Source of the DNA: a virus
Direction: 5' to 3' (one strand)
Length of the DNA stretch: 25,021 nt
Virus record (IMG/VR): IMGVR_UViG_3300032265_000044
Coordinates: 1-25,021 of that record
Shown here: positions 3 to 22,608 of the stretch, piece by piece
Position numbering within the stretch: position 1 is the first letter of the stretch
Layout: the number at the start of each line of letters is the position of its first letter
The notes under the pieces: generated by a model
Seen by the model: the letters and a program-made list of their open reading frames with translations, nothing else
Database searches by the model: none
What the model was told of the DNA's origin: nothing
Translations under genes and position numbers: made by a program

Positions 3-137
3 ATTCTCCACAATCAATACAAGTCACGCAAATCTGGTCAACGAAACAGAAACGACCCACGGGATTACGAAGCAATCTGCTACTTGATACCAAGGGAACA
101 GTTTAAAGAGATAAAAGGTTTTTCCTTTAATGACTGA
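3..137 (+). CDS. C-terminal fragment of an unrecognised protein
   Basis: Frame 3 is open from the left edge and ends at TGA 135-137, giving about 44 residues of a protein that starts outside the window. The end is charged and polar (NDPRDYEAICYLIPREQF, then KEIKGFSFND). The other two frames also stop before 110, so coding here rests on composition and on the 8-base overlap with the next start (ATG at 130), which is the tight packing seen throughout the window. I do not recognise the family. Because the next genes are an HNH protein and a DUF6378-like protein, it probably belongs to a nucleic-acid or early-function block rather than to the virion genes. It could still be a chance reading frame. 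Confidence 0.45.
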   Translation: MLHNQYKSRKSGQRNRNDPRDYEAICYLIPREQFKEIKGFSFND

Positions 138-486
138 GGATATGGGAACCACTAAACGAGGGAACCTATCGCAAAGAAGAAAGTTAGCGATATGGGAACG
201 AGAACATGGCAAATGCATGATCTGCTCAGTCAAGTTGAGGACAGGTCATTTTATCTTCGAGCACGTCCGGGCCTTGGAACTGGGAGGATCGGATACGGAC
301 GAGAATATACGTCTTACGTGCAAGGCTTGTGCTACGGAAAAGACGAAGGAGGATCACAGCATAGCAGCGAAAGCGAAACGAGCGAAGTCATCAACTTTAG
401 GTTTGAAAGTATCCAAAACCCCACTGCCATATGGAAAGAACTCAAAATGGAAGAAAAAGCTAAACGGAACTATAGTAGCCCGCTGA
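130..486 (+). CDS. HNH endonuclease-like protein lacking the final His
   Basis: A 118-residue protein with a compact HNH zinc fold. C29-x2-C32 and C64-x2-C67 form the zinc knuckles, E44-H45 (FEHVRALELGG) matches the first His block and N59 (DENIRLTC) the Asn block. In most family members the last knuckle is followed by His (CxxCHxxKT). Here the sequence is CKACATEKTKED, with Ala68 in that place, so nicking activity may be weak, lost or supported by another residue (H76 is nearby). The N-terminus and C-terminus are Lys/Arg-rich, as expected for DNA binding. ATG 130 overlaps the previous gene. A second ATG at 142 has a purine run too close to serve well. Phage HNH proteins act in packaging, homing or DNA processing, and the context does not choose between these. 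Confidence 0.75.
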   Translation: MTEDMGTTKRGNLSQRRKLAIWEREHGKCMICSVKLRTGHFIFEHVRALELGGSDTDENIRLTCKACATEKTKEDHSIAAKAKRAKSSTLGLKVSKTPLPYGKNSKWKKKLNGTIVAR

Positions 487-3368: not shown

Positions 3369-6300
3369 TTATTGCCCCAAAACTAGATTTGAAACACCCT
3401 GACCATAATGATCGTCAAATGCCTTTGTGGCTTTTGATACGTCTTTATTCTTAACTGCATATTCCCGTAATGCTTTTGCATCATCTGGATTAACCGTGGA
3501 AAGAACTGCCCGTTTAGCATACATATCAGGTGGATTTTGCTTAGCAAAAAGCTGTTCAGCACCGTTCAGATGACCAAACTTTGCTGCATAATCTTCATAG
3601 AAAGCAGTGCGATTTTGTTCATATTGAGCTGCCTGACGAAGACCTTCAACAATTCTCTTGTAACCCATTGATGTGTTTTCGGTCCCCGGATTTGCCTGAA
3701 CGGATTGCTGAACAATAAAGCCCGGTTCATGGCCACCAATAGAGCGACTAAGTTCCGCACCAAGCCTAAAGCGATCTTTGGTAAGATTTTCAATAGCAGC
3801 GACAGAACTAGCATCAAATACAGGAGAGCCACCCAAACTTTGCAAGAAAGTATTGGCGCTTTTAGCAAACTCACCACGTTCAGTTGCGTATGAACCGGGC
3901 GTCAAAAATCCTGTATCGGGAAGATTTTTACGCTGTAAATCCATATCATCTAAACGATATTGTTGCCCAAAGGCAGCCTGAGACTTAGCACGCTGATCCG
4001 CCAAGGATTTCGCTGCATTTGAAGCCTCATCCTTTGCCATTGTAGGGTTCATTTGAATATTAAACTGCTGATCAGGAATATAACCTTCTGGCACCTTCGT
4101 TGGATCAATAATTTTGGTTTCGGGTTGAATCGGGGTGGCTGATGTAGCTGGAACCTGATCTTTATTTTCACTGACATCTGGCAATGGGTCAGCCGTTCCT
4201 TCTTTTGTTGGAACCGATTCAGGCTTGATATCAGACAAAGGATTCATTTTTTCATCGGTAATACGTTTTGGCGGCAGAAGTGGATTGGTGTTGTCATACA
4301 AGACAAATCCATATCCCGGAATCCACTGCTTAGAATACAATCCAGCCCGTGCTGTTGCTGCGCGAGCTTGCATTTCTGATATCTCTGCGGGAGCCTTCTG
4401 CTCTTGAACGCTTACTTCACGTCCTTTGAGAGCTTGTTCAGCCAAAGCTTTTTGAGTTTCATAATTAATCTGCTTCTGCTTAGCATAGGTATTCATGCCA
4501 GTCAGTCCGCCTTGACCAATGGCTTGGGTAAGGAATGGAGATGGGCTTGCCATCATGCCAAAGCCAGCAGCCATCATGGCCTGACGAGCATCATCAGATA
4601 ATGGTTGACCCTTATTAAAGGTGCTTGAAATAAAACCCGGCTGCGTATCTGATCCAAATACACCACCTAGCCCCTTAGATATAGATGATCCTAATCCACC
4701 CAAGAAACCTTGATCTGCGGGAACGGTTTTTTCTGGATCAGCAGAGCTGCCATCAGCATGTGGAATGCGAGGAACAAGACCGCCAGTGGCATACATGGAT
4801 TGGCCTAAAGTACCACCAATACCGCTATCTCCACTAATATAACTTGGCAAAACTGATGAAGGAGCGGTGGCTAAACTGTATTTTTTGTAAGCCTTACCAA
4901 ACCCTTCAATACCAGAAGTGTCAAATGTTGGCGCATCATATGGATGAGCTGTCGGGATAGGCATACTTCCGCCCGCTTTAATTTCCTTTGCTTGAGGAAT
5001 ATATGATCCAAGCGTAATCTTAGCTAATGCAGCCATTTCTTCAGCTAGTGGATCATCAGCGTATGGTATTTGAGTAAATTGGCTTCCACCCGACGCAAAT
5101 GGATGACGCTCCATGCTTTCAGGGACAAGGCCGCCCATTGATGACCCACCAGCTGCAAAGTGGCCACGATCCGCAGCTTTATTAGTAGCATCATTGTAAT
5201 CAACAACACGCATACCATCATCGCGACGGTAAACAGCATTAGGATTATGCTTTTCAACCTCTTGAGCACTAAGACCAATTTGCGTACGTGGGTCACCCTT
5301 ATAATTATACTTATAAAGGTTTTGACCATCAAAGGTCTTACCAATAGGCTCCATGTTTTCTTTAAGGCGCTCGTCTGATGGCGTCATATAACCCAACAAT
5401 GACGTGCCAAGGCCAAGTGCGGCATTCATTGGATTTGGAGCCGGAGTAGTGGCCGTGCTCGTACCACCCTGACCAGCGCCAAGGCCGGAAGCCATGTTTG
5501 CCAAACTACCCAACGTCTGGAATGGATATGCCTGTTGCTGAGCGAACTGTTGATATGCAGCTGCGTTCTGAGCTTGCTGAACTGCGTACGGAATAGCTCC
5601 AGCCGCCGACAACTGTTGAGCGCCAGTCATGCCAGCCGTTTGAGCGCCAGCCCCTAACTGTCCATATTGAGCACCAGCGGCCAATGACATTGGAACCGTT
5701 TGAAGTGCCGCGTTTTGAGCCAATGTTCCAAGCTGACCGTACTGAGCACCAAGAGCACCCAACTGTTGAGCGCCCTGCATAGCAGCATTTTGAGCACCGG
5801 TGCCAAGTTGACCGTATAGTGATGCTTGCTGCTGAGCCAATGGCATACCCTGAAGTGCCGCGTTCTGAGCCGCAGTACCTAATGCACCATATTGACCAGC
5901 CGCACCCATTCCTTGGCCAGCAATGTTTGCAATATTAGCAGCGCCCTGTTGCTGAGCTTGACCGGCATTAATAAGAGCCTGTTGAGCCTGTCCACCAAGT
6001 TGACCATACTGATTAGCAAGGCCGCCAATCTGTCCATACATAGAACCCTGCTGCCCAGCGATACCCGCCTGAGCGCCAAGGCCAGACAAATAATTCTGTG
6101 CCGCCGATTGATAGCCAGTGTTAGCCATCTGGCCAAGCGTTTGACCCATAGCAAGGTTCTGCTGGCCCATAAGAGCCGCCTGAGCCACCTTGCCACGATC
6201 CCCACCGAAAGCACCCTGCTGAATTGCGCTTCCCTGAAGTTGCTGTTGCTGCTGTTGATTTTGATTCTGCATCATTGCAGCCGTTGAACCCATCGCATTC

Positions 6301-6992
6301 TGCAAATAAGGATTCATGTAACCTTGAACGCCAGCCGCATAATTCGGGGCATTGTAACCCTGAGAAATACCACCCAATCCGCCGATAGTCTGCCCAAGCC
6401 CACCAGCCGCGCCCATCGTACCCATCTGAGCGGCCTGATAACTTGGCTGAGCTGCATATGTTGATTGCATCAGCGGCCTCATGCCAGCTTGAGCAGCGCC
6501 CGCAGCTTCTTGATATTGAGGCATAGTTCCAGCCGCAAAAGTTTGAGCACCCTGAAAATAAGGTTGCGCCACTCCCAAGCCTTGGTTCAAAATATCTTGA
6601 GCTTGCCCAGCCGCTCCATACCCCGCCTGATAAGCTGGCTGAGCCGCATTCATGTTCATTCCAGCTTGCTGTGCAGCGGCACCCGTCAGATCAGTAGCCG
6701 CGCCATAATAAGGCTGGGCAACATTTTGGCCTTGAGCAATTTGGTTCATGGCAGTATTCGTCGCGCCATAACCAGCCTGATATCCGGGCTGTGCGGCCTG
6801 AGAATATTGCTGAGCTTGATTGATGCCAGCTTGCTGAGTAGCATTGATATCAGGAACTAGCTGCCCCTGATACTGCTGGTAAGGTTGCTGCTGAAGGGCT
6901 TTACCCTGCTCAGTTATGTACTTGTACATATCCTGAACAGCCTGTGGAGGCGCACTCGTGGACGTAGTGGTGGCTGAACCCTTGGAACCCAT
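3369..6992 (-). CDS. Large Gln/Ala/Gly-rich virion protein with a central S74-like domain (1207 aa)
   Basis: Residues 1-510 are extremely rich in Gln, Ala, Gly and Tyr, including a 4 x 25-residue tandem repeat (368-467). Near 536-620 lies a segment like the peptidase S74 intramolecular chaperone domain: SDERLKEN, with S539 and K544 spaced as in the Ser/Lys pair of endosialidase-type domains, then NLYKYNYKGD, GLSAQEVE and DGMRVVDY. After it come short Gly-Gly motifs (FAAGG, FASGG, YATGGLVP), a Met/Ala-rich helix (ARQAMMAAGFGMMAS), a proline-rich linker and a helical C-terminus with AELSRSIGG. S74 domains normally end tail fibres or spikes, so a central position with about 590 further residues is unusual. 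Best guess: an internal or ejection protein, possibly self-processed at S539 into parts of about 538 and 669 residues. A tail appendage is the main alternative. Confidence 0.65.
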   Translation of the reverse strand: MGSKGSATTTSTSAPPQAVQDMYKYITEQGKALQQQPYQQYQGQLVPDINATQQAGINQAQQYSQAAQPGYQAGYGATNTAMNQIAQGQNVAQPYYGAATDLTGAAAQQAGMNMNAAQPAYQAGYGAAGQAQDILNQGLGVAQPYFQGAQTFAAGTMPQYQEAAGAAQAGMRPLMQSTYAAQPSYQAAQMGTMGAAGGLGQTIGGLGGISQGYNAPNYAAGVQGYMNPYLQNAMGSTAAMMQNQNQQQQQQLQGSAIQQGAFGGDRGKVAQAALMGQQNLAMGQTLGQMANTGYQSAAQNYLSGLGAQAGIAGQQGSMYGQIGGLANQYGQLGGQAQQALINAGQAQQQGAANIANIAGQGMGAAGQYGALGTAAQNAALQGMPLAQQQASLYGQLGTGAQNAAMQGAQQLGALGAQYGQLGTLAQNAALQTVPMSLAAGAQYGQLGAGAQTAGMTGAQQLSAAGAIPYAVQQAQNAAAYQQFAQQQAYPFQTLGSLANMASGLGAGQGGTSTATTPAPNPMNAALGLGTSLLGYMTPSDERLKENMEPIGKTFDGQNLYKYNYKGDPRTQIGLSAQEVEKHNPNAVYRRDDGMRVVDYNDATNKAADRGHFAAGGSSMGGLVPESMERHPFASGGSQFTQIPYADDPLAEEMAALAKITLGSYIPQAKEIKAGGSMPIPTAHPYDAPTFDTSGIEGFGKAYKKYSLATAPSSVLPSYISGDSGIGGTLGQSMYATGGLVPRIPHADGSSADPEKTVPADQGFLGGLGSSISKGLGGVFGSDTQPGFISSTFNKGQPLSDDARQAMMAAGFGMMASPSPFLTQAIGQGGLTGMNTYAKQKQINYETQKALAEQALKGREVSVQEQKAPAEISEMQARAATARAGLYSKQWIPGYGFVLYDNTNPLLPPKRITDEKMNPLSDIKPESVPTKEGTADPLPDVSENKDQVPATSATPIQPETKIIDPTKVPEGYIPDQQFNIQMNPTMAKDEASNAAKSLADQRAKSQAAFGQQYRLDDMDLQRKNLPDTGFLTPGSYATERGEFAKSANTFLQSLGGSPVFDASSVAAIENLTKDRFRLGAELSRSIGGHEPGFIVQQSVQANPGTENTSMGYKRIVEGLRQAAQYEQNRTAFYEDYAAKFGHLNGAEQLFAKQNPPDMYAKRAVLSTVNPDDAKALREYAVKNKDVSKATKAFDDHYGQGVSNLVLGQ
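5592..5891 (-). repeat. 4 x 75-bp tandem repeat inside the 1207-aa gene
   Basis: Four consecutive 25-residue units (residues 368-467) begin with YG(A/Q)LG. The first three continue with xxAQNAAxQ and the fourth is more diverged (AGAQTAGMTG). The unit boundaries at 5891, 5816, 5741 and 5666 are exactly 75 bases apart. A related incomplete unit, YGQLGGQAQQAL, lies upstream. The period suggests duplication of a helical module. Confidence 0.8.
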
Positions 6993-13051: not shown

Positions 13052-13360
13052 TTAGAAAGGTGGCAATTGCGGTTGTGATACAGGCTGAGATAACTGTGTT
13101 ATTTGTGCAGCAATCCCAGTTTCTACGGCTGGCATACTAATGCAATCCGATACCCATGCATAAGCCATTTCTTGCGTAATGTCAGCATATGGAATGAATT
13201 TGGCTGGGCTAGGTGTACCAAGTTTTGCCGTACCAGATGCAGATGACGATATTGTGCCATCCGTGCCAGTGCATACCCAGTTTATGGCCGTGACTACATT
13301 AGTCAGGTCATCGTATGTTGGGGATACAATAAATTGAGGAAACGTCCATGTGAACTGCAT
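13052..13360 (-). CDS. DUF7936-like small phage protein (102 aa)
   Basis: I choose ATG 13358-13360 (MQFTWTFPQFIVSPTYDDLT). The open frame continues to 13471, but that extension only overlaps the upstream gene. A GAG-containing purine patch lies about 7 bases before this ATG. The protein follows the pattern FTW-xxxx, then VVTAINWVCTGTDG, SSASGTAKL, FIPYADITQEMAYAWVSD and a Gln/Pro tail. This matches, from memory, a roughly 100-residue tail-module family now called DUF7936. Such genes commonly accompany fibre genes in environmental phages. The role is unknown. It may be a small fibre or tail accessory. Confidence 0.65.
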   Translation of the reverse strand: MQFTWTFPQFIVSPTYDDLTNVVTAINWVCTGTDGTISSSASGTAKLGTPSPAKFIPYADITQEMAYAWVSDCISMPAVETGIAAQITQLSQPVSQPQLPPF

Positions 13361-13379
13361 TACACACTCATAAAATTGA

Positions 13380-13613
13380 TTAAGGCGTTGGTGGATTAGG
13401 ATCAGTAAATTGCCCCGTTGCTGGATCATATATCCAGCCAAATGTGACAGAAGAGTTGTCGGGTAATGCAACTAATGTGCAACCTTCTGGAGCTGGGTCA
13501 ATAGAGGGATCAGCAACAATAATATTGATAACAGTTTCATCACTGTTTTGAACAACTGCACAGTTTTGTGGATTGCCATTAGGCTCAACTATTTGCATTG
13601 GACCTCCAAACAT
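13380..13613 (-). CDS. Fibre partner protein, paralogue 1 (77 aa)
   Basis: Its ATG (13611-13613) shares one base with the TAA of the 603-residue fibre (TAATG), implying coupled translation. From residue 18 it matches the 60-residue protein at 15620-15802: AVVQNS(D/N)ETVINIIVADPS, then DPA-x-EGCTLVALPD and VTFGWIYDPA-x-G-x-FT. The form 'V-N-x-I-V-A-D ... LV-x-LPD ... GW-x-YD-x-x-x-G-x-F' resembles the N-terminal part of small tail-fibre assembly proteins and a motif seen in phage fibre accessory genes. An additional 15 residues at the N-terminus (MFGGPMQIVEPNGNP) are absent from the paralogue. Likely a fibre-associated assembly factor or tip protein, inferred from place and duplication. Confidence 0.65.
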   Translation of the reverse strand: MFGGPMQIVEPNGNPQNCAVVQNSDETVINIIVADPSIDPAPEGCTLVALPDNSSVTFGWIYDPATGQFTDPNPPTP

Positions 13614-15424
13614 TACGTGTACTCCCAGATGCGAATGACGCCTTGTTTTCCATTTGGCGCAGCTGAATTTCCAATCGAAGCACCGCTTCCACTTCCGTAT
13701 CCAGTTCCAGCCCCACCAATATTACCACCAAGAGCGCCAACTCCCCCGCCTCCAAAGAAGCTGCCTCCACCACTGCCGCCTACACCAACAGAGGCATCAT
13801 CGCTACCAAACCCTCCGGCACTTCCGCCGCCATTAAGATCACCATTTGTACCAGAACCGCCAGCTCCGCCGGGCTTTTTACCAGTTGCACTATTCCCGCC
13901 TAATCCGAAGGAACCACCACTAGCTGTTATAGTGGTGGCGCTTACAGTAAAGGTTGAATTTCCTCCAGCAGAACCATTTCCAACGGAACCTGATGATCCA
14001 CCTCCACCAATGGCATATGTATATGCTGTACTTGGGGAAACAGTAAAATATTTAGCCACATATCCGCCACCGCCGCCACCGCCAGCCGCTCCACTAGTTT
14101 GACCATTCCCACCTGAGCCGCCGCCTCCACCAACAACCTCAACATAGATTGAGTTACAACCAGCGGGTGTCGTGTAGGACGTGCCTGATGTTAATACCTG
14201 TGGAGCACGGATCAGCGTGCCTGTAGCAGCTGTGGCAGTCGCTGCAATCGTAATAGAACCCGCGCCATTAGTTACAGTAATACCTGAGCCAGCAGTAATA
14301 GTTGAACGGGTAAAGTTTGTTCCGTTTCCAATATCAATCGCACCGTTAGCTGGCGTTGATGTCAAACCAGTACCGCCATTGGCGACTGCTACAGTTCCAG
14401 AAACGTTTCCGGCTGTTGTTGCTGTTGCCGCATTACCGGATGTATTTACGTTAATCGTGGCTGGCAAGCTAAGGGTAACGCCGCCTGTGGATGCAGACGC
14501 GGTAATCTGACTGGCTGTTCCGGTTATGGACGTAACGCCACTATTACTAATCGTGACCGCACCAGTTGAACCGGAAACTGTAATGCCAGTACCCGCAACA
14601 TTTGATGTAACGCCGGTATTGGTGACACTTACAGCACCAGTAGCAGATGTATTAGTGCTTAAACCGCTGCTAGTCGTTAACGATGTAACACCCGTATTGG
14701 TCACACTAACAGCGCCAGTCGCAGATGTATTTGTGCTAAGACCACTACTAGTTGTTAAAGAAGTGACACCTGTATTAGAAATAGTAACGGCACCAGTGGC
14801 AGCCGATACGCCAATTCCAGTACCCGCGACATTGGAAGTAACAATACCAGTAAGACTTGAACCAGAACCGGCGTATGAAGTAGCGGTTACGGTGCCAACC
14901 ACTTGAAGCTTTGTGCTTGGTGATGATGTTCCGATGCCAACGCTACCCGATTGTGTTGCGAGATAAGTGTTACCCAGTACGGTCAATGTACCAAAGTTGT
15001 TGGTCAACCCATCGTCGGTATAACGGATGTTGGTGCCATCAGAGTAAATAGAGACATTATAGCCCTGTGGAGCTGAAACAGAAGTGCCGCCACCAGCCGA
15101 TGATACGGTAATCGAAAACGAACCAGATGTAGTGTTGTAAATAATCCATTTTCCAGAAATACCGGAAGGAAATTGCAATATTTGGTTGGCCGACAATGCG
15201 CCAGTCAACGTAATACGCATGGCTTGAGTTTGACCAAGTGAACCAGAGGATGTTGGCCCAGTAAGCGTAGTTGTAGCTGATGCGCCAGTTGGCATCGCGA
15301 TGGAAGTGGTGTTACCAAAAACGGCATCTAGAATCGTTTCGTTAAAATTTAACGGCTGATCCCACGTTGGCGACGTGCTATTATATACAGGTTGATTTAA
15401 CCCAGTATTAGTCGTCGTTGCCAT
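13613..15424 (-). CDS. Tail fibre with Gly-rich C-terminal domain (603 aa)
   Basis: The N-terminal 130 residues (TGLNQPVYNSTSPTWDQPLN...) resemble the attachment region of short-tail phage fibres. Residue 160 onward is a Ser/Thr/Gly repeat shaft: one GIGTSSP motif (SVGIGTSSPSTKLQV), then two identical 26-residue units (GVTSLTTSSGLSTNTSATGA plus VSVTNT) and further TGAVTISN-type repeats. Residues about 403-603 form a Gly-rich domain that starts GTLIRAPQVLTSGTSYTTPA, continues CNSIYVEVVGGGGG with many GGxGG runs, and ends GVIRIWEYT. The same domain ends the larger fibre. Such Gly-rich tips can fold as polyglycine-II helix bundles in known adhesins, so this is probably the receptor-binding tip. 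The domain name is by pattern only. The gene overlaps the 69-residue membrane gene by 17 bases. Confidence 0.8.
   Translation of the reverse strand: MATTTNTGLNQPVYNSTSPTWDQPLNFNETILDAVFGNTTSIAMPTGASATTTLTGPTSSGSLGQTQAMRITLTGALSANQILQFPSGISGKWIIYNTTSGSFSITVSSAGGGTSVSAPQGYNVSIYSDGTNIRYTDDGLTNNFGTLTVLGNTYLATQSGSVGIGTSSPSTKLQVVGTVTATSYAGSGSSLTGIVTSNVAGTGIGVSAATGAVTISNTGVTSLTTSSGLSTNTSATGAVSVTNTGVTSLTTSSGLSTNTSATGAVSVTNTGVTSNVAGTGITVSGSTGAVTISNSGVTSITGTASQITASASTGGVTLSLPATINVNTSGNAATATTAGNVSGTVAVANGGTGLTSTPANGAIDIGNGTNFTRSTITAGSGITVTNGAGSITIAATATAATGTLIRAPQVLTSGTSYTTPAGCNSIYVEVVGGGGGSGGNGQTSGAAGGGGGGGYVAKYFTVSPSTAYTYAIGGGGSSGSVGNGSAGGNSTFTVSATTITASGGSFGLGGNSATGKKPGGAGGSGTNGDLNGGGSAGGFGSDDASVGVGGSGGGSFFGGGGVGALGGNIGGAGTGYGSGSGASIGNSAAPNGKQGVIRIWEYT
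14127..14164 (-). repeat. 38-bp exact repeat shared by both fibre genes, copy 1
   Basis: Identical over 38 bases to 16328-16365 and encodes part of CNSIYVEVVGG in both fibres. A second identical run of 21 bases (14198-14218 and 16399-16419) lies at the same 2201-base offset. The segment between is similar but not identical. Confidence 0.85.
14604..14759 (-). repeat. 2 x 78-bp tandem repeat in the 603-aa fibre
   Basis: The units 14604-14681 and 14682-14759 are exactly 78 bases each and encode the same 26 residues (starting GVTSLTTSSG). By my reading they differ at 13 bases, and none changes the protein. A diverged third unit follows. Confidence 0.85.
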
Positions 15425-15617
15425 TGGTAATATCCTTCTTACGGCCTAGAATCTGCTGAAAAGTTTCAGTTTCGTATATCCGAATGCTATACCATATAAT
15501 AGGCAACAATGCACCAAGGGGTGTTAGCCAGCCAAATAACGTCGTAATAGTAGCGGAAATAGATATCCAATCCATTAGATGCTTCATTCCTCTATCAATG
15601 TTATCTGTTGCTGACAT
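15408..15617 (-). CDS. Small membrane protein, putative accessory holin (69 aa)
   Basis: The start is ATG 15615-15617, because AGAGG (15625-15629) lies 7 bases upstream. A TTG two codons earlier would be only a few bases from it. A short charged N-terminus (MSATDNIDRGMKHLMDW) precedes a hydrophobic region, residues 18-48 (ISISATITTLFGWLTPLGAL and LPIIWYSIRIY), long enough for one bent or two short membrane spans. The C-terminus is charged (FQQILGRKKDITNGNDD). This layout is that of small holin-like phage proteins, but it sits between the two fibre cassettes and 3 kb from the endolysin. Lysis timing, or a fibre-module passenger, are both possible. It overlaps the 603-residue fibre start by 17 bases. 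Confidence 0.6.
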   Translation of the reverse strand: MSATDNIDRGMKHLMDWISISATITTLFGWLTPLGALLPIIWYSIRIYETETFQQILGRKKDITNGNDD

Positions 15618-15619
15618 AA

Positions 15620-15802
15620 TCAAACCTCTGTAGGTGCAGTAAATGTACCATTAGCAGGATCATAAATCCAACCGAATGTCACGGGGGAACCGTCAGGCAG
15701 CGCAACCAATGTGCAGCCTTCTGTAGCTGGATCAACAGATGGATCAGCAACAATGATATTGATTACGGTTTCATTGCTGTTTTGAACAACTGCACTATTC
15801 AT
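15620..15802 (-). CDS. Fibre partner protein, paralogue 2 (60 aa)
   Basis: I start at ATG 15800-15802 (MNSAVVQNSNETVINIIVAD), which shares a base with the TAA of the 2268-residue fibre (TAATG). An in-frame extension to 15817 lies within the fibre end. The protein continues PSVDPATEGCTLVALPDGSP and VTFGWIYDPANGTFTAP. It closely matches residues 18-77 of the protein at 13380-13613. Both copies follow a fibre ending in GVIR(I/V)WEYT, with the same sequence at the join (ACACGTAATG). The position and the duplication argue for a job tied to the fibre tip, such as a chaperone or bound partner, though direct evidence is lacking. No membrane or signal segment. Confidence 0.7.
   Translation of the reverse strand: MNSAVVQNSNETVINIIVADPSVDPATEGCTLVALPDGSPVTFGWIYDPANGTFTAPTEV
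15625..15629 (-). promoter_or_regulatory. Ribosome binding site that fixes the 69-aa protein start
   Basis: AGAGG on the - strand ends 7 bases before ATG 15617, the optimal distance. It is too close to the in-frame TTG at 15623 to serve that codon. Confidence 0.6.
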
Positions 15803-18800
15803 TACGTGTACTCCCAAACGCGGATAACACCAGCAGCACCAGCGCCAGAGCTAGTGCTGCCTGAACCGGAACCACCACCCGCACCGCCGCCGCCATATGT
15901 ATTTCCTGCTGCACCATCATTTTGAGGAGAACCGCCCCCAAAATAACTTCCACCGCCATTACCATAAATTGCGTTAGTCGATGATACCCAAAATCCAGAA
16001 GTTCCGCCGCTTCCGCGTATATTTAAATCGCCACCAGAACCAATTCCGCTTGCGCCACCCACTGTGCTGCCAAAAGTAAAAGATGCAACTTGACCGCCGC
16101 CGCCGCCACCACCACCAGTAATTGTTACGCTAGATGGCCCAGTAAATGTGGTATTTCCGCCAGAGTTACCATTAGTGCTATTAACAGAAACTGCTGTCCC
16201 TCCAGCCCCAATTGCGTATGCGTAAGCAGTGCTTGGGGAAACAGTAAAATACTTAGCAGAATACCCACCGCCACCGCCACCAGCACTAGCACCGGAAGAT
16301 ATTGCTTTATTTCCTCCCGAACCACCGCCACCAACAACCTCAACATAGATTGAGTTACAACCAGCAGGGGTTGTGTAGGATGTTCCAGATGTCAGAATCT
16401 GTGGAGCACGGATCAGCGTACCTGACGCCGTTGCTGATGCAGTAGCGCGGTATAACTGACCGGATGAGTTTACATATACGTTGGCTGCTGTTGCACTAGT
16501 ACTGCTGTAGACGGATGGAATAAGCACGTTGCCGGAGGAGTCGATACGCATACGTTCTGTACCGCCCGTAGCAAGTACGGTGTAAGAACCATTGATTGCC
16601 ATTGGTTGATATGCAGATTGGGCAGCATTTACAGCTTCAATAGATGAACCAGAATAAGCGGAGTTATATCCACCTAAGCGCATCCCGCCTGTTGCGCCAA
16701 AAAAGAACCCAACGCCGTTACCATCGCCGCCAACTACAGCAAACTTACCGTAAGTGCTTGGCGAAGTCGTCCCAATACCTACGTTGCCGCTGCCGTCAAT
16801 AGTCATTCGAACTTTTGATGCGGCAGTGTCTGCGGATGTTTGGCCCGTGAAAAACAAAAGCTGTGTTCCAGCGGACTGTGTGTATATACCGGAAACAGCA
16901 GTGCTATCTTGAAAACCAATACCCCCGCCATACGCCCCCCCGCCTAATATAGCAGGGTAACTGGCAACTCCGGCGGGAGTAAACACACCAGTAACTTGCA
17001 ACCTTGAATTTGGCGAACTCGTCCCAATACCTACGTTGCCGGAGGAGTCGATACGCATACGTTCTGTGGCGTTGGTATTAAACAACATTGGTGCATTGGC
17101 GTCAGTCGTAATTGTAACCGCACCGTCAGTTGCGCTTTGTGAAAATGCAGCGGTGTTTTGTGTTCCTGCTTTTAACAAAAACTTGGCAACGCCACTGGTA
17201 TTAGTGTTATAAACCCACGTTGAAAGAACGCCAGCAACATTGCCAGAAACTGTCAATTTTTCAGTTGGCGAAGTCGTCCCAATACCTACGTTGCCGCTAG
17301 TATCAATACGCATACGTTCTGACTGGCTACCCGTCTTAAATATGATGCTGTCAGTTGTACCCGCGCCAGACGTGGATTCCAATGTCAGTGTAGACGATGC
17401 TGCCGTTCCACCGATCAAGAGTGGTGTTGTGAGCGATGTAGTTAGCGTTGGCGAGGCAGAGTAAGATGGAGCAACACCAACACCGCCCGATACCAATACG
17501 GAGCCAGTAGCAACGTCCGCCAGCTTTGATAAAGCGGTTGTCGTGGAGGCATACAGCAAATCACCAATGGTATACGAGGATTGTCCTGTGCCACCGTTTG
17601 CAACAGTCAAAGCATTTGTAAGAGACAATGTGCCAATGGCTGTCGTTGACGTACTCAGAAATGTAGCATTACCATTAGAGGCAATTGTCAGAGCTGTTAC
17701 AGCACCGTTATTACCTGTCTTAAAGAGAATACTATCAGTTGTTCCCACACCGGTAGTTGATTGCAGCGTCAACGATGAGGATGCTAAAGTTCCACCAAAA
17801 TGAGATGGGGCAGTCAAAGATGTAAGTGTCGGCGTTGCCGAATAGGCAGGAGCAGCGCCAACACCACCCGAAACTAATACGGAACCCGTTGCGACATCCG
17901 CTAATTTGGATAGTGCCGTAGAAGACGAAGCATATAACAAATCGCCAATCGTATACGAGGATTGTCCCGTTCCGCCATTGGCTGCAACAAGAGTACCGGC
18001 GACAGTAACAGCACCAGTTGTGGCTGAGCTAGGCGTTAAACCAGTTGTGCCGAATGTAATTGATGTAACAGCGGCAGTTGTTGGGACTGAACCCCATGTC
18101 GGAGCACTTCCCGTTGTAGCTACAAGAACTTGTCCCGTAGTTCCAGCGCCAGTAACACCAAGAGCACTTGTTCCGTTACCATAAATAACGCCGTTAGCCG
18201 TAAATGTAGCCGCTCCCGTTCCACCGTTTGCGACAGTCAAAGCATTCGTAAGTGATAGTGTGCCAATGGCCGTTGTGGAGGCACTGAGGAATGTAGCGTT
18301 ACCATTAGAGGCAATTGTTAAAGCCGTTACAGCACCGTTATTACCCGTCTTAAATAAAATGCTATCAGTCGCTCCAACGCCAGATGTTGATTGAAGCGTG
18401 AGCGTTGACGATGTGGTCGTGCCACCAATGTGCAGTGGTGTCGTTAAGGATGTAGTTAATGTTGGCGAGGCAGAATAGGATGGAGCATTGCCGACGCCGC
18501 CAGATACTAGCACAGAGCCAGTAGCAACATCCGACAGCTTAGACAGCGTTGTAGCAGCTGACGCATAAAGAAGATCACCAACTGTGTAAGATGTTATATT
18601 TGTCCCACCACTAGCGACAGGAACAACGCCAGAAAGAGTGGCAAGAGTTACTGTTGTCCAAGTGGGGGCTGCTGATGGCCCACCAGACAAAAAGAACTGT
18701 CCAGATGTGCCATAAGTGCCCGCTCCAATACCGAACTGACCAGCTGGGCCAAACCGGAATGCTTCAGTGGCAGAGTTACCGCCTGTAGCAGTTGTATATA

Positions 18801-21800
18801 CAGATGCATACGTTCCTTGAGCCGTATCCGTAAAGTTTTCGGCTGCTGATAAAGCAAAGTATCCCGTTGATGCAGTCCCAAATATCGTTGCGCCATAACC
18901 ACGGCCAGTGAATTGTGATAAGAAATCACCGGTTTGCGAAGCCGTTGGTGACGCAGCCGTTCCGCGAGCTTGACGGCCCGTAAATGCAGAATAGCTTCCC
19001 GTGCCATAAGCATCTTGAGTAATACGAGTATTGGCCGCATTAGCGCCAACAATGTACAAATCCGTGCCAGCTGGAAGTGTCCCAGTTGGAGTTGTCGTTT
19101 GCGTATTGGATACAATGGTTAGCTGTGTCTGTGGAGCGGCTGTATTAATACCAATACGATTGTTGGTATTATCCCAAAAGAACTTGGCATTGTTCTGACT
19201 GTAAACACCAGATGCACCAGCAAATACGACAGAACCTGTGGTAAAGGATGTATTTGTTCCCGTACCACCGTTTGTAACACCCAATGTTCCAGTAATGCCT
19301 GTGGTTAATGGAAGACCCGTGGCATTGGTCAGAATCGCAGCGGAAGGAGTTCCAAGGGCTGGCGTTACGAGAGTTGGTGACGTTGATAGAACAACGGAAC
19401 CTGAACCAGTTGAAGTAGTTACGCCCGTTCCACCAGCGAGAACCGGAAGAGTTCCAGCTATCAATGCGGATGATGAAGTTGAGTAAATAGCATTATTAGC
19501 AGCAGTAAATGTTGTTAATCCTGTGCCGCCGTATCCAGTACCAATAGTGGAGCCATTCCAAGTACCAGCAGTGATTGCTCCACTTGTACCAATGGTCATG
19601 GCATCCGTAGCGCCATTGTTAACCACGAAGTGAATGGCATTGCTTGTCGTCGTGCCGATAGCAAGATCAACCGATGTTGATGTTAAAAATACGTTATTTG
19701 GTGTATTAAGCGCACCTGTTCCAGAGAACCCAGATGAGTTCATACCGAAATCACCGAAATAGGTGCTGGCCGTTCCGTTGTTATTACTAACAATAAAATC
19801 AGTTGATGCTAAGGTACCAGAATTGGTGTTTTGAAGAACCATCTGGTTGTATGAGTTTACGCTATTTGTGTATGAAGCAAATGTATTCGTGTCTGTATAA
19901 CCAAGTGTACCATAGCTATAAGCGCCAGCAGCTGCTGCACTGGCAATTGATCCATTTGCAGTTACATACGTAAATGCACCCGTGGAAGGCGTTGTAGCGC
20001 CAACCGTTCCATTGATACCGCTCACCCAAGAGGCTGTTGTGCCATTGGAAGTAAGAATTTGATTGTTTGTACCAATACCCAAACGTGTTGCGCTACTTGC
20101 GCCATTCCCAAGGATTAAGTCGCCCGTTGTCGTAATCGGTGACAATGCGTTAAAGGCGGCAGATGCAGTTGTCTGTCCAGTTCCGCCAAATGAAATACCA
20201 ACTGTGCTTAGGCCAATCGTGCTGCCCGTTTTGGTAATTGGTGCGGATACAGTGATATTACCGGATGCTGACGTTTGCGCCCAAACCAAAGAGGTGGAAC
20301 CAACTGTAATAGTGCCAGTTGTGTTCATCACCCATGAGGTTGCGCCATAAGTCGTTCCATTAGTGACAAAGGTTGCCGCGCCAGTTTCAATGAAATTTGG
20401 GCCAGTACCAACTGTATTAAAGTCAGTAGCGCGAGTTAAAACCCAATTGGTCAAAATTGTGCCAACGGTCGTAACTGTATAAATTCCGTTATAAGCAGAC
20501 GTTGTCATATCCTTAACAAGGATACGGTCATTTAACGAGGCGGTATAACCATCGGTAGAGAATGCCGCCTGTACACCGCTATTAGTTAAAGTTGCACCAA
20601 CGCCTGACGATCCATTGTTATAGGTTGCCGTCAAATTAGCTGTTGTGGCTGCGGCTGACGCAGTGTGGAATGTTTGGTTAGATACCGTGGCAACTTGTCC
20701 ATCAACATATTGTTTGGTTGATAATTGAAGTGCCGAAACTGGGTCTTGAGTAACCGTAACAGTTGTCAGGCCAGAAAGTGTCGCTGCTGTAGCACCAAGT
20801 GATACGGACGTTGTTCCAAGGGTAATGGCGGAATTAGTTAAACCAGCATTTGGAATTGTCGCTGACGCTGTAAAGGCACCAGTGCCATTACCAAATACAT
20901 ATCCACTAAGCGTAGACGCGCCCGTGCCGCCGTTAGCGACAGGAAGAACACCGGTAACACCAGTGGTAAGTGGCAAGCCCGTGGCGCTGGTTAGGATGGC
21001 CGTAGACGGCGTACCAAGGTTTGGTGTCACGAATGTTGGAGAATTTGATAATACTGTGCTTCCAGTACCCGTAGATGTCGTTACACCAGTGCCACCAGCT
21101 GTAACCGGAAGAGTACCAGATGCTAATACCGAAGTAGATGTTGCATATAATGCCCCACCAGAAGTAAAGACCGATAGACCAGTACCGCCATTGGGGGTAC
21201 CAAGTATTCCAATAATGCCCGTGGTTAAAGGAAGGCCAGTAGCATTAGTTAAAACAGCGGAAGATGGAGTTCCAATGGCAGGAGTTATCAAAGTAGGTGA
21301 ATTTGATAATACAACTGAACCAGTCCCAGTTGATGTTGTCACACCCGTGCCACCAGCCGTTACCGGCAAAGTACCCGTGGTCAACGCCGATGCAGAAGAT
21401 TCATATACCGCACCGCCTGACGTAAATGGCGTGGCTCCACTGAGACCAGTGCCACCATTCGAAGTGGGCAAAGTTCCGGTAATTGCTGATGAAAGGCTTA
21501 CCTTACCCCAAGAAGGAGCGACACCGACGCCACCAGAAAGTAAAACATTGCCAATAGCCACATCGTTAAGACGGGCCAAGGTGGAAGATGATGAAGCATA
21601 AAGAATATCACCCGTTGTATATGATCCATAACCCGTGCCACCCTGCGTCTCAGACAGTGGCGTTGTTAAGCCAGATAGTGACGTAATATCGCTATTTGCG
21701 CCTGACGATGCAGCACTAAGGTTTGTTCTAGCGCCTGAGGCTGTCGTTGCCCCCGTTCCGCCATAAAGAATAGCGACAGGAGTTCCCTGCCATGTTCCAG

Positions 21801-22608
21801 AACTAATCGTGCCAATAGACACTGTTCCAGTGGCAGTAAGATTGGTAAATGAACCAGCTGATTTGGTTGTTCCGCCAATGGTTGTCTGGTCAATTGTTCC
21901 GCCAGTAATTGCAACCGCATTAGCATTTTGTGTGGCCATCGTTCCAAGGCCAACGACTTGGCTTGGCACAATAGAAATAGTCACATTAGAGGCACTTGTA
22001 ATTTGACCCTGAGCGTTAACAATAATCTGAGGAACTGCTGACGCCGTGCCGTAGGTCTGTGCAGTTACGCCAGTATTAGCGATTGCAATCGTTCCAGTCG
22101 TGGTGATTGTACCGCCCGATAAGCCGGTTCCAGCCGTGATTGATGTAACACTACCAAATCCAAAGTTTTGTGCTTTTACAAATGCTGTAGTGGCAATTTG
22201 AGTGCTATTGTCTACCGTCAAGGCCGTTGGGGCCGTTGGTGTGCCAGTAAAATTAGGTGAATTAAGTGGCGCGGCGGCCAACATTGTCATTACTTGGGCC
22301 ACAGTAAGGTCTAATGGCTGTAAACTACCAGACGAATTGTTGCCCTTGAGCGTTTTACCGCCCATTTGAGCAAGATAATCATTGGTAACGCCATTATTAT
22401 TAAGGCCAATTGTACCGGTAGTTGTAATTGTTCCGCCCGAAAGCGGGTTTTGAGCCGTGATTGACGTAACCGTTCCAGAGTTTGTATTAAAACCCGCAAC
22501 TTGCTGAACCGTGGCGCTGTAAGACGTATTTCCTTGCACAACCATAAGTTGGGCATTCCCGCTCAAACTAAGTGCTACGGGAAGATTTGGAATGGAAATA
22601 TTGGCCAT
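15802..22608 (-). CDS. Giant tail fibre with Gly-rich tip (2268 aa)
   Basis: The N-terminus (MANISIPNLPVALSLSGNAQ) and the following SPNFTGTPTAPTALTVDNST-type repeat plus QIATTAFVK are phage fibre/collar elements. The shaft has repeating ...AGGTGVTTSTG...VLSNSPT...TPxxGTPSxAxLT...GLPLTTG units (three copies), a segment around residues 640-760 with DRILVKDMTTSAYNGIYTVT and WVLTRATDFNTV (a common fibre insert), a DLLYAS...GSVLVSGGVG repeat (three copies), and three NVGIGT(T/S)SP motifs toward the C-terminus. Residues about 2063-2268 are a Gly-rich domain that starts GTLIRAPQILTSGTSYTTPA and ends GVIRVWEYT. It is presumably the main receptor-binding fibre. It is long for a short-tailed phage and repeat-rich at DNA level. 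No S74-type C-terminal chaperone domain is present. Confidence 0.85.
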   Translation of the reverse strand: MANISIPNLPVALSLSGNAQLMVVQGNTSYSATVQQVAGFNTNSGTVTSITAQNPLSGGTITTTGTIGLNNNGVTNDYLAQMGGKTLKGNNSSGSLQPLDLTVAQVMTMLAAAPLNSPNFTGTPTAPTALTVDNSTQIATTAFVKAQNFGFGSVTSITAGTGLSGGTITTTGTIAIANTGVTAQTYGTASAVPQIIVNAQGQITSASNVTISIVPSQVVGLGTMATQNANAVAITGGTIDQTTIGGTTKSAGSFTNLTATGTVSIGTISSGTWQGTPVAILYGGTGATTASGARTNLSAASSGANSDITSLSGLTTPLSETQGGTGYGSYTTGDILYASSSSTLARLNDVAIGNVLLSGGVGVAPSWGKVSLSSAITGTLPTSNGGTGLSGATPFTSGGAVYESSASALTTGTLPVTAGGTGVTTSTGTGSVVLSNSPTLITPAIGTPSSAVLTNATGLPLTTGIIGILGTPNGGTGLSVFTSGGALYATSTSVLASGTLPVTAGGTGVTTSTGTGSTVLSNSPTFVTPNLGTPSTAILTSATGLPLTTGVTGVLPVANGGTGASTLSGYVFGNGTGAFTASATIPNAGLTNSAITLGTTSVSLGATAATLSGLTTVTVTQDPVSALQLSTKQYVDGQVATVSNQTFHTASAAATTANLTATYNNGSSGVGATLTNSGVQAAFSTDGYTASLNDRILVKDMTTSAYNGIYTVTTVGTILTNWVLTRATDFNTVGTGPNFIETGAATFVTNGTTYGATSWVMNTTGTITVGSTSLVWAQTSASGNITVSAPITKTGSTIGLSTVGISFGGTGQTTASAAFNALSPITTTGDLILGNGASSATRLGIGTNNQILTSNGTTASWVSGINGTVGATTPSTGAFTYVTANGSIASAAAAGAYSYGTLGYTDTNTFASYTNSVNSYNQMVLQNTNSGTLASTDFIVSNNNGTASTYFGDFGMNSSGFSGTGALNTPNNVFLTSTSVDLAIGTTTSNAIHFVVNNGATDAMTIGTSGAITAGTWNGSTIGTGYGGTGLTTFTAANNAIYSTSSSALIAGTLPVLAGGTGVTTSTGSGSVVLSTSPTLVTPALGTPSAAILTNATGLPLTTGITGTLGVTNGGTGTNTSFTTGSVVFAGASGVYSQNNAKFFWDNTNNRIGINTAAPQTQLTIVSNTQTTTPTGTLPAGTDLYIVGANAANTRITQDAYGTGSYSAFTGRQARGTAASPTASQTGDFLSQFTGRGYGATIFGTASTGYFALSAAENFTDTAQGTYASVYTTATGGNSATEAFRFGPAGQFGIGAGTYGTSGQFFLSGGPSAAPTWTTVTLATLSGVVPVASGGTNITSYTVGDLLYASAATTLSKLSDVATGSVLVSGGVGNAPSYSASPTLTTSLTTPLHIGGTTTSSTLTLQSTSGVGATDSILFKTGNNGAVTALTIASNGNATFLSASTTAIGTLSLTNALTVANGGTGAATFTANGVIYGNGTSALGVTGAGTTGQVLVATTGSAPTWGSVPTTAAVTSITFGTTGLTPSSATTGAVTVAGTLVAANGGTGQSSYTIGDLLYASSSTALSKLADVATGSVLVSGGVGAAPAYSATPTLTSLTAPSHFGGTLASSSLTLQSTTGVGTTDSILFKTGNNGAVTALTIASNGNATFLSTSTTAIGTLSLTNALTVANGGTGQSSYTIGDLLYASTTTALSKLADVATGSVLVSGGVGVAPSYSASPTLTTSLTTPLLIGGTAASSTLTLESTSGAGTTDSIIFKTGSQSERMRIDTSGNVGIGTTSPTEKLTVSGNVAGVLSTWVYNTNTSGVAKFLLKAGTQNTAAFSQSATDGAVTITTDANAPMLFNTNATERMRIDSSGNVGIGTSSPNSRLQVTGVFTPAGVASYPAILGGGAYGGGIGFQDSTAVSGIYTQSAGTQLLFFTGQTSADTAASKVRMTIDGSGNVGIGTTSPSTYGKFAVVGGDGNGVGFFFGATGGMRLGGYNSAYSGSSIEAVNAAQSAYQPMAINGSYTVLATGGTERMRIDSSGNVLIPSVYSSTSATAANVYVNSSGQLYRATASATASGTLIRAPQILTSGTSYTTPAGCNSIYVEVVGGGGSGGNKAISSGASAGGGGGGYSAKYFTVSPSTAYAYAIGAGGTAVSVNSTNGNSGGNTTFTGPSSVTITGGGGGGGGQVASFTFGSTVGGASGIGSGGDLNIRGSGGTSGFWVSSTNAIYGNGGGSYFGGGSPQNDGAAGNTYGGGGAGGGSGSGSTSSGAGAAGVIRVWEYT
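16328..16365 (-). repeat. 38-bp exact repeat shared by both fibre genes, copy 2
   Basis: This is the copy in the 2268-residue fibre; see 14127-14164. Recombination between the two would remove about 2.2 kb and fuse the fibres. Confidence 0.85.
16526..17298 (-). repeat. Exact short repeats encoding GIGTxxP / ERMRIDSSGNV motifs
   Basis: A 35-base exact repeat at 16526-16560 and 17033-17067 encodes TERMRIDSSGNV. A 34-base exact repeat at 16758-16791 and 17265-17298 encodes SGNVGIGTTSPT-type sequence. They mark module joints in the fibre shaft. Confidence 0.8.
17560..18600 (-). repeat. Long imperfect direct repeats in the giant fibre (DLLYAS...NGG unit)
   Basis: A unit with Y(T)xGDLLYAS...SKLxDVATGSVLVSGGVG...ILFKTGNNGAVTALTI...LTNALTVANGGTG is present near 18230-18600 and again near 17580-17985. 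A third, shortened copy near 17290-17580 ends in SERMRID. Anchor sites are spaced 630 and 381 bases apart. Parts of the first two differ at only a few bases (for example 17661-17720 against 18291-18350). Confidence 0.8.
19310..21373 (-). repeat. Three-copy AGGTGVTTSTG...GLPLTTG fibre repeat
   Basis: The unit of about 145 bases (AGGTGVTTSTG to TGLPLTTG) occurs near 21229-21373, 20971-21115 and 19310-19454. The first two are 258 bases apart, which is a whole number of codons (86). Confidence 0.75.

Follow-up and report, generated by a model that had tools for sequence, protein, structure and literature searches.

The window, that is, the whole stretch of DNA analysed here (25,021 nucleotides from a 25-kb virus contig), carries on its minus strand, in this order, fibre 1, partner 1, a membrane-protein-like ORF, fibre 2, partner 2 and a DUF7936 protein (Table 1). 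The initial annotation of this DNA had described two fibres (2268 and 603 residues) that share one kind of tip, each followed by a paralogous partner of 60 or 77 residues whose start shares one base with the fibre stop. Each of these points was borne out: both fibre ORFs are present, their tips are homologous (125/196 residues identical, 64%), the partners are 82% identical over 57 amino acids (E = 6e-33), and TAATG, in which the fibre stop and the partner ATG have one base in common, stands at both junctions. Both junctions read TGGGAGTACACGTAATG, an exact match of 17 bp at an offset of 2189. The membrane-protein-like ORF between the cassettes and the DUF7936 gene after the second cassette had been omitted.

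Table 1. Features of the two fibre-partner cassettes, with positions in the window
Feature	Position	Strand	Basis or remark
Fibre 1 (long), 2268 aa	15802-22608	-	Single ORF; shaft collinear with long fibres of L035, L077 and L024
Tip 1, TNF-like plus glycine-rich domain, putatively receptor-binding, 206 aa	15805-16422	-	Model and 7ypx_A match
38-bp exact repeat, tip 1 copy	16328-16365	.	Other copy 14127-14164
21-bp exact repeat	16399-16419 / 14198-14218		Offset 2201
GGAG, Shine-Dalgarno-like core in W-E codons of fibre 1	15811-15814	-	8 nt before partner 1 ATG
Partner 1, predicted one-domain beta-sandwich assembly partner, 60 aa	15620-15802	-	Model, 7ypx_a match, AAM22 gp51 profile match
Membrane-protein-like ORF between cassettes, ~69 aa	15408-15617	-	Kept upstream of fibre 2 in L008 and L071-L079
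Fibre 2 (short), 603 aa	13613-15424	-	ORF; PHROG tail-fibre matches
Tip 2, Gly_rich_2 (PF21722), 202 aa	13616-14221	-	39 bits (cutoff 24.3); tip alignment
38-bp exact repeat, tip 2 copy	14127-14164	.	Other copy 16328-16365
GGAG, Shine-Dalgarno-like core in W-E codons of fibre 2	13622-13625	-	
Partner 2, same core plus 16-residue N-terminal leader (MFGGPMQIVEPNGNPQ), 77 aa	13380-13613	-	
DUF7936 protein, 102 aa	13052-13360	-	PF25590, 72 bits; alternative downstream neighbour of such fibres

The leader of partner 2 is kept as protein across eight genes, which differ by synonymous changes and by changes of length in frame, and translation is therefore taken to start at the overlapping ATG. A start at the second ATG, behind a GGAGG, was considered and rejected, because the GGAGG is not conserved. 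The N-terminal part of fibre 2 and the ORF upstream of it share 96.6% DNA identity with the related locus L008, and a search of Pfam and PHROG with this membrane-protein-like ORF gave no match. Just ahead of the DUF7936 gene, the sequence GAGTGTGTAATG (13358-13369) looks like a decayed fibre-end junction GAGTACACGTAATG; it is as though a tip and DUF7936 had once been neighbours and partner 2 had come in between.

As for the rest of the window, one protein is a relative of the 'phage stabilization protein' found in several podovirus-like phages, both cultured and uncultured (best match MW202675, 50.6% identity), and a second contig, IMGVR_UViG_3300034198_000343, is identical to the window over 10.9 kb. 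An HNH endonuclease gene lies at the window edge (130-486, plus strand). At 3369-6992 on the minus strand, a protein of 1207 residues contains a Peptidase_S74 domain in its middle (residues 539-588); it occupies the position of a relative's 'internal virion protein', and such a place is unusual for a self-cleaving chaperone of the C-terminal kind. A scan for promoters and terminators gave nothing informative.

Folds of the tips and their partners

We modelled tip 1 as a monomer from an alignment of 44 tips (mean pLDDT 93.1). In the PDB it matched the fibre of cyanophage Pam3 best (chain A of 7YPX), with a VIA Z of 23.5 over 189 aligned residues (32% identity, rmsd 2.1) and a Foldseek E of 1.5e-8; next came the Bxb1 tail tip (Z 17.4) and then the ALK/LTK glycine-rich domain (Z 8-10). 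The likeness of this fold (tip 1 residues 2-206) to the animal ALK/LTK domain was also pointed out for gp24 by the Pam3 authors. The Pam3 gp24 tip consists of a TNF-like and a glycine-rich domain and is thought to read its receptor through variable distal loop ends (PMC9608196).

Aligning the two tips and the two partners, as the initial annotation had proposed, upheld their likeness for the partners, for the tips as a whole and above all for the proximal part of the tips (30 of the first 31 residues identical), but not for the distal non-glycine positions, of which only 10/38 agree. At these distal positions, tip 2 and the tip of L008 are identical at 17/40 and differ at 23/40, although the flanking DNA is 94-97% identical. 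The window tips are accordingly of the Pam3 gp24 type, with a conserved proximal part and hypervariable distal loops. Conserved glycine motifs and hypervariable distal loops are also found in the gp38 adhesins of T-even phages (S16, PP01); however, gp38 is a separate tip protein, whereas the window tip is part of the fibre. The tips would bind receptors, and the fibres would presumably be trimeric. The different N-termini and shafts, together with the strongly diverged distal loops, make it plausible that the fibres represent two receptor specificities or a long/short pair, and, with two shafts and two diverged tips, a single particle may bear two fibre types that use different receptors. No close tip was found among the isolated phages of INPHARED.

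The 60-residue partner 1 was modelled from an alignment of 41 members (pLDDT 93.9) and is predicted to consist of five strands and nothing else. The only structure with a VIA Z of at least 2 was chain a of 7YPX, the Pam3 chaperone gp25 (Z 5.2, weak when taken alone; 53/60 residues, chaperone residues 4-60), which Foldseek matched at a non-significant E of 3.8. The assignment of this fold thus leans on a coincidence, namely that tip and partner independently find both chains of one complex. In Pam3, gp25 residues 1-55 form a five-strand beta-sandwich stuck to the junction of the TNF-like and glycine-rich domains; this N-terminal domain binds the fibre, and a C-terminal helical domain (residues 64-162) trimerises (PMC9608196). 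The window partners stop where the Pro-rich linker would begin and lack the helical domain. The two systems are alike in tip fold, perhaps (by a weak match) in partner fold and in the pairing of a partner gene with a glycine-rich fibre; they differ in the trimerising domain and in that the window phage has two cassettes, on long repetitive shafts.

A second line of evidence came from profile comparison. The partner profile matched gp51 of Pantoea phage AAM22 over 61 columns (prob 96.9), whereas neighbouring proteins, used as controls, scored below 1. AAM22 gp51 is itself a Caudo_TAP match (32.7 bits, cutoff 22.1), and its gene sits after a Gly_rich_2 fibre. To the Caudo_TAP family (PF02413; Mu Tfa, the lambda gpK family, AAM22 gp51) the window partners appear similar in the N-terminal domain and are alike in the position of the gene directly behind the fibre. 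However, they lack the helical C-terminal half, and none of the 41 partner members reached the Caudo_TAP gathering score in Pfam. The Mu Tfa structure (5YVQ) was absent from our fold lists, and its absence carries no weight against a relation to Tfa. Against Pfam and PDB sequences, the partner profile gave chance matches only (OCRE, protein G). In a viral structure library, the partner came closest to models of small phage proteins that are uncharacterised; two-domain proteins of greater length and annotated chaperones ranked lower. The partners matched PHROG 14370 and 18617, families without a function. In INPHARED, AAM22 was the sole match for partner 1, and a query with a related partner added a Pseudomonas phage. 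A scan of bacterial genomes returned one match only, in a MAG. On a Bdellovibrionaceae MAG contig (L093, 4001-5102), a 65-residue relative of the partner stands before, not after, a glycine-rich protein. The initial annotation had assigned the partner no function. Judged from structure and gene context, it is most likely a tail-fibre-assembly protein of one domain that lacks the helical half responsible for trimerisation.

Distribution of the cassette and the terminal glutamate codon

We searched IMG/VR with the partner alone and with the tip. The partner search yielded ten loci, and in all nine with upstream sequence the partner lies directly behind a glycine-rich fibre. The tip search yielded 75 loci. 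Among 58 distinct tips with a readable end, the next gene is the partner in 34/58 (31 with the one-base overlap), DUF7936 in 8/58 and something else in 16/58. The eight DUF7936 genes use the same one-base overlap. They start at the same TAATG behind glycine-rich tips, without the GAG signal described below (L035, L043, L068-L084), and DUF7936 also occurs behind an S74 fibre (L078); our literature search found no paper naming this domain. Versions with different numbers of cassettes, which the initial annotation had suggested seeking, do exist: L030 has two tip-partner pairs, and L050 and L051 have three in tandem. In L050 (1348-4261) and L051, three short glycine-tip fibres follow one another, each with its own partner.

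The slots are also filled differently among relatives. L024 has a tip and partner in slot 1 and a tip and DUF7936 in slot 2, and L008 has DUF7936 ahead of the membrane-like ORF and a tip and partner in slot 2; these differing contents indicate that the two slots are filled independently. The long fibre of L035 shares 52.6% amino acid identity with fibre 1 residues 461-1699 (the shafts are repetitive, and alignments beyond this best block need care), and the homologous long fibres of L035, L077 and the shorter L078 fragment end in Peptidase_S74 and not in a tip and partner. Peptidase_S74 domains are intramolecular, self-cleaving chaperones. In sister phages, S74 (PF13884) thus takes the same C-terminal slot of a homologous long fibre, but it acts in cis and cleaves itself, whereas the window partner is a separate protein. 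Judged from these loci, the tip and its partner are a widespread, swappable cassette. A comparable arrangement is known from Alteromonas phages V22 (gp26/gp27) and A5 (gp8/gp9), in which a fibre is followed by an intermolecular chaperone; such host recognition modules move between unrelated phages, and one fibre needs the chaperone while another does not (PMC7289586, PMC10579305). The likeness lies in a fibre with a downstream chaperone as a mobile host-recognition module; the Alteromonas chaperones, however, have 195-239 amino acids and DUF4376, and they may be unrelated to the window partner.

The last glutamate of the fibre is encoded by GAG in all 34 partner-coupled fibres, which gives a GGAG usually 8 nt ahead of the partner ATG, whereas tips without a partner use GAG in four cases and GAA in 15 (15/19; Fisher P = 6e-10, in a test that ignores sequence relatedness). 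Where Ser stands in place of the preceding Trp, it is encoded by TCG in 4/4 cases, so that GGAG is retained, and the adjacent Tyr/Phe and Thr/Ser codons vary freely at partner-coupled fibre ends. Because coupled and uncoupled tips are intermixed in the tip tree (L034 beside L068-L084, L049/L031 beside L020, and the window and L008 tips beside L035/L043), several of the GAG/GAA contrasts look independent. This codon pattern suggests that the fibre gene probably contains, in its GGAG, the ribosome-binding site of the partner.

History of the two copies and alternative readings

The 38-bp and 21-bp exact repeats reported in the initial annotation, both offset by 2201, were recovered at their coordinates, and further exact repeats that it lacked were found: 20 bp (offset 2201), 19 bp in the partners (offset 2234) and the 17 bp at the junctions. 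The two tips have 12 consecutive codons in common (P = 0.00035 by permutation at the protein identity observed), a run that is among the top four of 1632 tip pairs below 72% identity, in which the longest run is usually 2-4 codons. At synonymous positions, 45% of codons are the same, compared with a family background of 35%, and outside the patches the value is near background. A search of 2.9 million viral contigs found the 29-bp core of the 38-bp block in no lineage but this one, where it stands in both window tips and in the L008 tip. The idea that the block is a general DNA-conserved recombination site was rejected, both by this restriction of the core and by codon identity near background across 1630 tip pairs. 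In the partner tree, partner 1 groups with the L006 partner (96/95), and partner 2 and its counterpart in the close relative L008 have identical cores; in the tip tree, tip 2 groups with the L008 tip and tip 1 falls outside, with modest support. The two cassettes thus largely have separate closest relatives, which the initial annotation had itself named as evidence against its reading. It had proposed recent shared ancestry or gene conversion; gene conversion fits the 38-bp patch with its lineage-specific core, but a recent duplication of the whole cassette does not fit the synonymous sites near background. What fits the sequences best is a local exchange between the copies, which either preceded the split from L008 or has been maintained from then on.

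For these reasons we regard it as quite improbable that both cassettes arose by a recent duplication within the genome, followed by replacement of the shaft: the shared exact stretches (38, 21, 20, 19 and 17 bp) and the closely similar partners would be accounted for, but the orthology of partner 2 to that of L008, the grouping of partner 1 with L006, the position of tip 1 outside the tip 2-L008 pair and the background-level synonymous sites disfavour it. Still more improbable is a switchable pair in which the two fibres are alternatives, not made simultaneously, like Mu S/U and S'/U'. Mu-type cassettes have a duplicated fibre tip and assembly gene, and the present layout matches this. However, both copies have the same orientation, intact genes and their own N-termini; a search for tail-fibre inversion found no oppositely oriented copies, no long inverted repeats (only short imperfect ones) and no recombinase or invertase match among the window proteins scanned, so that this reading is likewise disfavoured.

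The remaining alternatives concern the partner itself. That PHROG 14370 and 18617 carry no function and that some tips have no partner would suit an unrelated small protein, acting for example in lysis or regulation and hitch-hiking with fibre genes, but the 9/9 loci found without using the fibre, the profile match to a Caudo_TAP protein and the conserved embedded ribosome-site-like motif leave little room for it, and we give it a low probability. We also think it unlikely, though less so, that the partner, instead of acting as a transient chaperone, is a permanent part of the virion that caps the tip stoichiometrically or serves there as a co-receptor subunit. As it lacks the trimerisation half, its role may be limited to clamping the tip; the codon signal points to coupled expression, and Mu Tfa stays in the virion (PMC9608196). 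On the other hand, gp25 was not detected in Pam3 virions (PMC9608196), and tips without any partner exist.

A proposed mechanism of tip assembly

We propose that one late operon of the window carries two receptor-binding cassettes, each of which can be swapped independently of the other. Each fibre, presumably trimeric, would end in a Pam3 gp24-like TNF/glycine-rich tip and be followed by a one-domain assembly partner corresponding to the tip-binding beta-sandwich half of a Tfa/Pam3 gp25-type chaperone, without the helical trimerisation half. Ribosomes ending the fibre would re-initiate on the partner through the embedded GGAG and the TAATG overlap, and the partner would thereby be made in step with its fibre. 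During folding of the tip, it would then attach laterally to the conserved proximal (TNF-like) part, and the hypervariable distal glycine loops would stay free to read the receptor. Counted against this proposal are the weak match of the partner to 7YPX chain a, its missing trimerising domain, the lack of any score above a Pfam gathering cutoff among the partners, the uncorrected relatedness in the codon test and the 24/58 tips without a partner, eight of them with DUF7936 at the same junction; such tips are evidently not always in need of one. On balance, we consider this explanation, swappable Pam3-type tips with coupled one-domain assembly partners, to be probable. A broader generalization is offered only tentatively: the single-domain partner class (PHROG 14370/18617) might fold or cap glycine-rich tips without a trimerisation domain, and one partner might serve different tips through the conserved proximal face, so that phages could accumulate tips, one to three per genome, and exchange them freely with S74-type ends.

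The results point to what a family of tiny, so far unassigned phage proteins probably does and suggest that half of a known fibre chaperone may suffice. Tip variation is concentrated in the distal loops, while the part presumed to face the chaperone stays fixed, and at the end of the same fibre phages appear to trade cis (S74) for trans (partner) chaperones. The terminal GAG codon together with TAATG also provides a sequence rule by which fibre-partner cassettes may be spotted in unannotated viromes.
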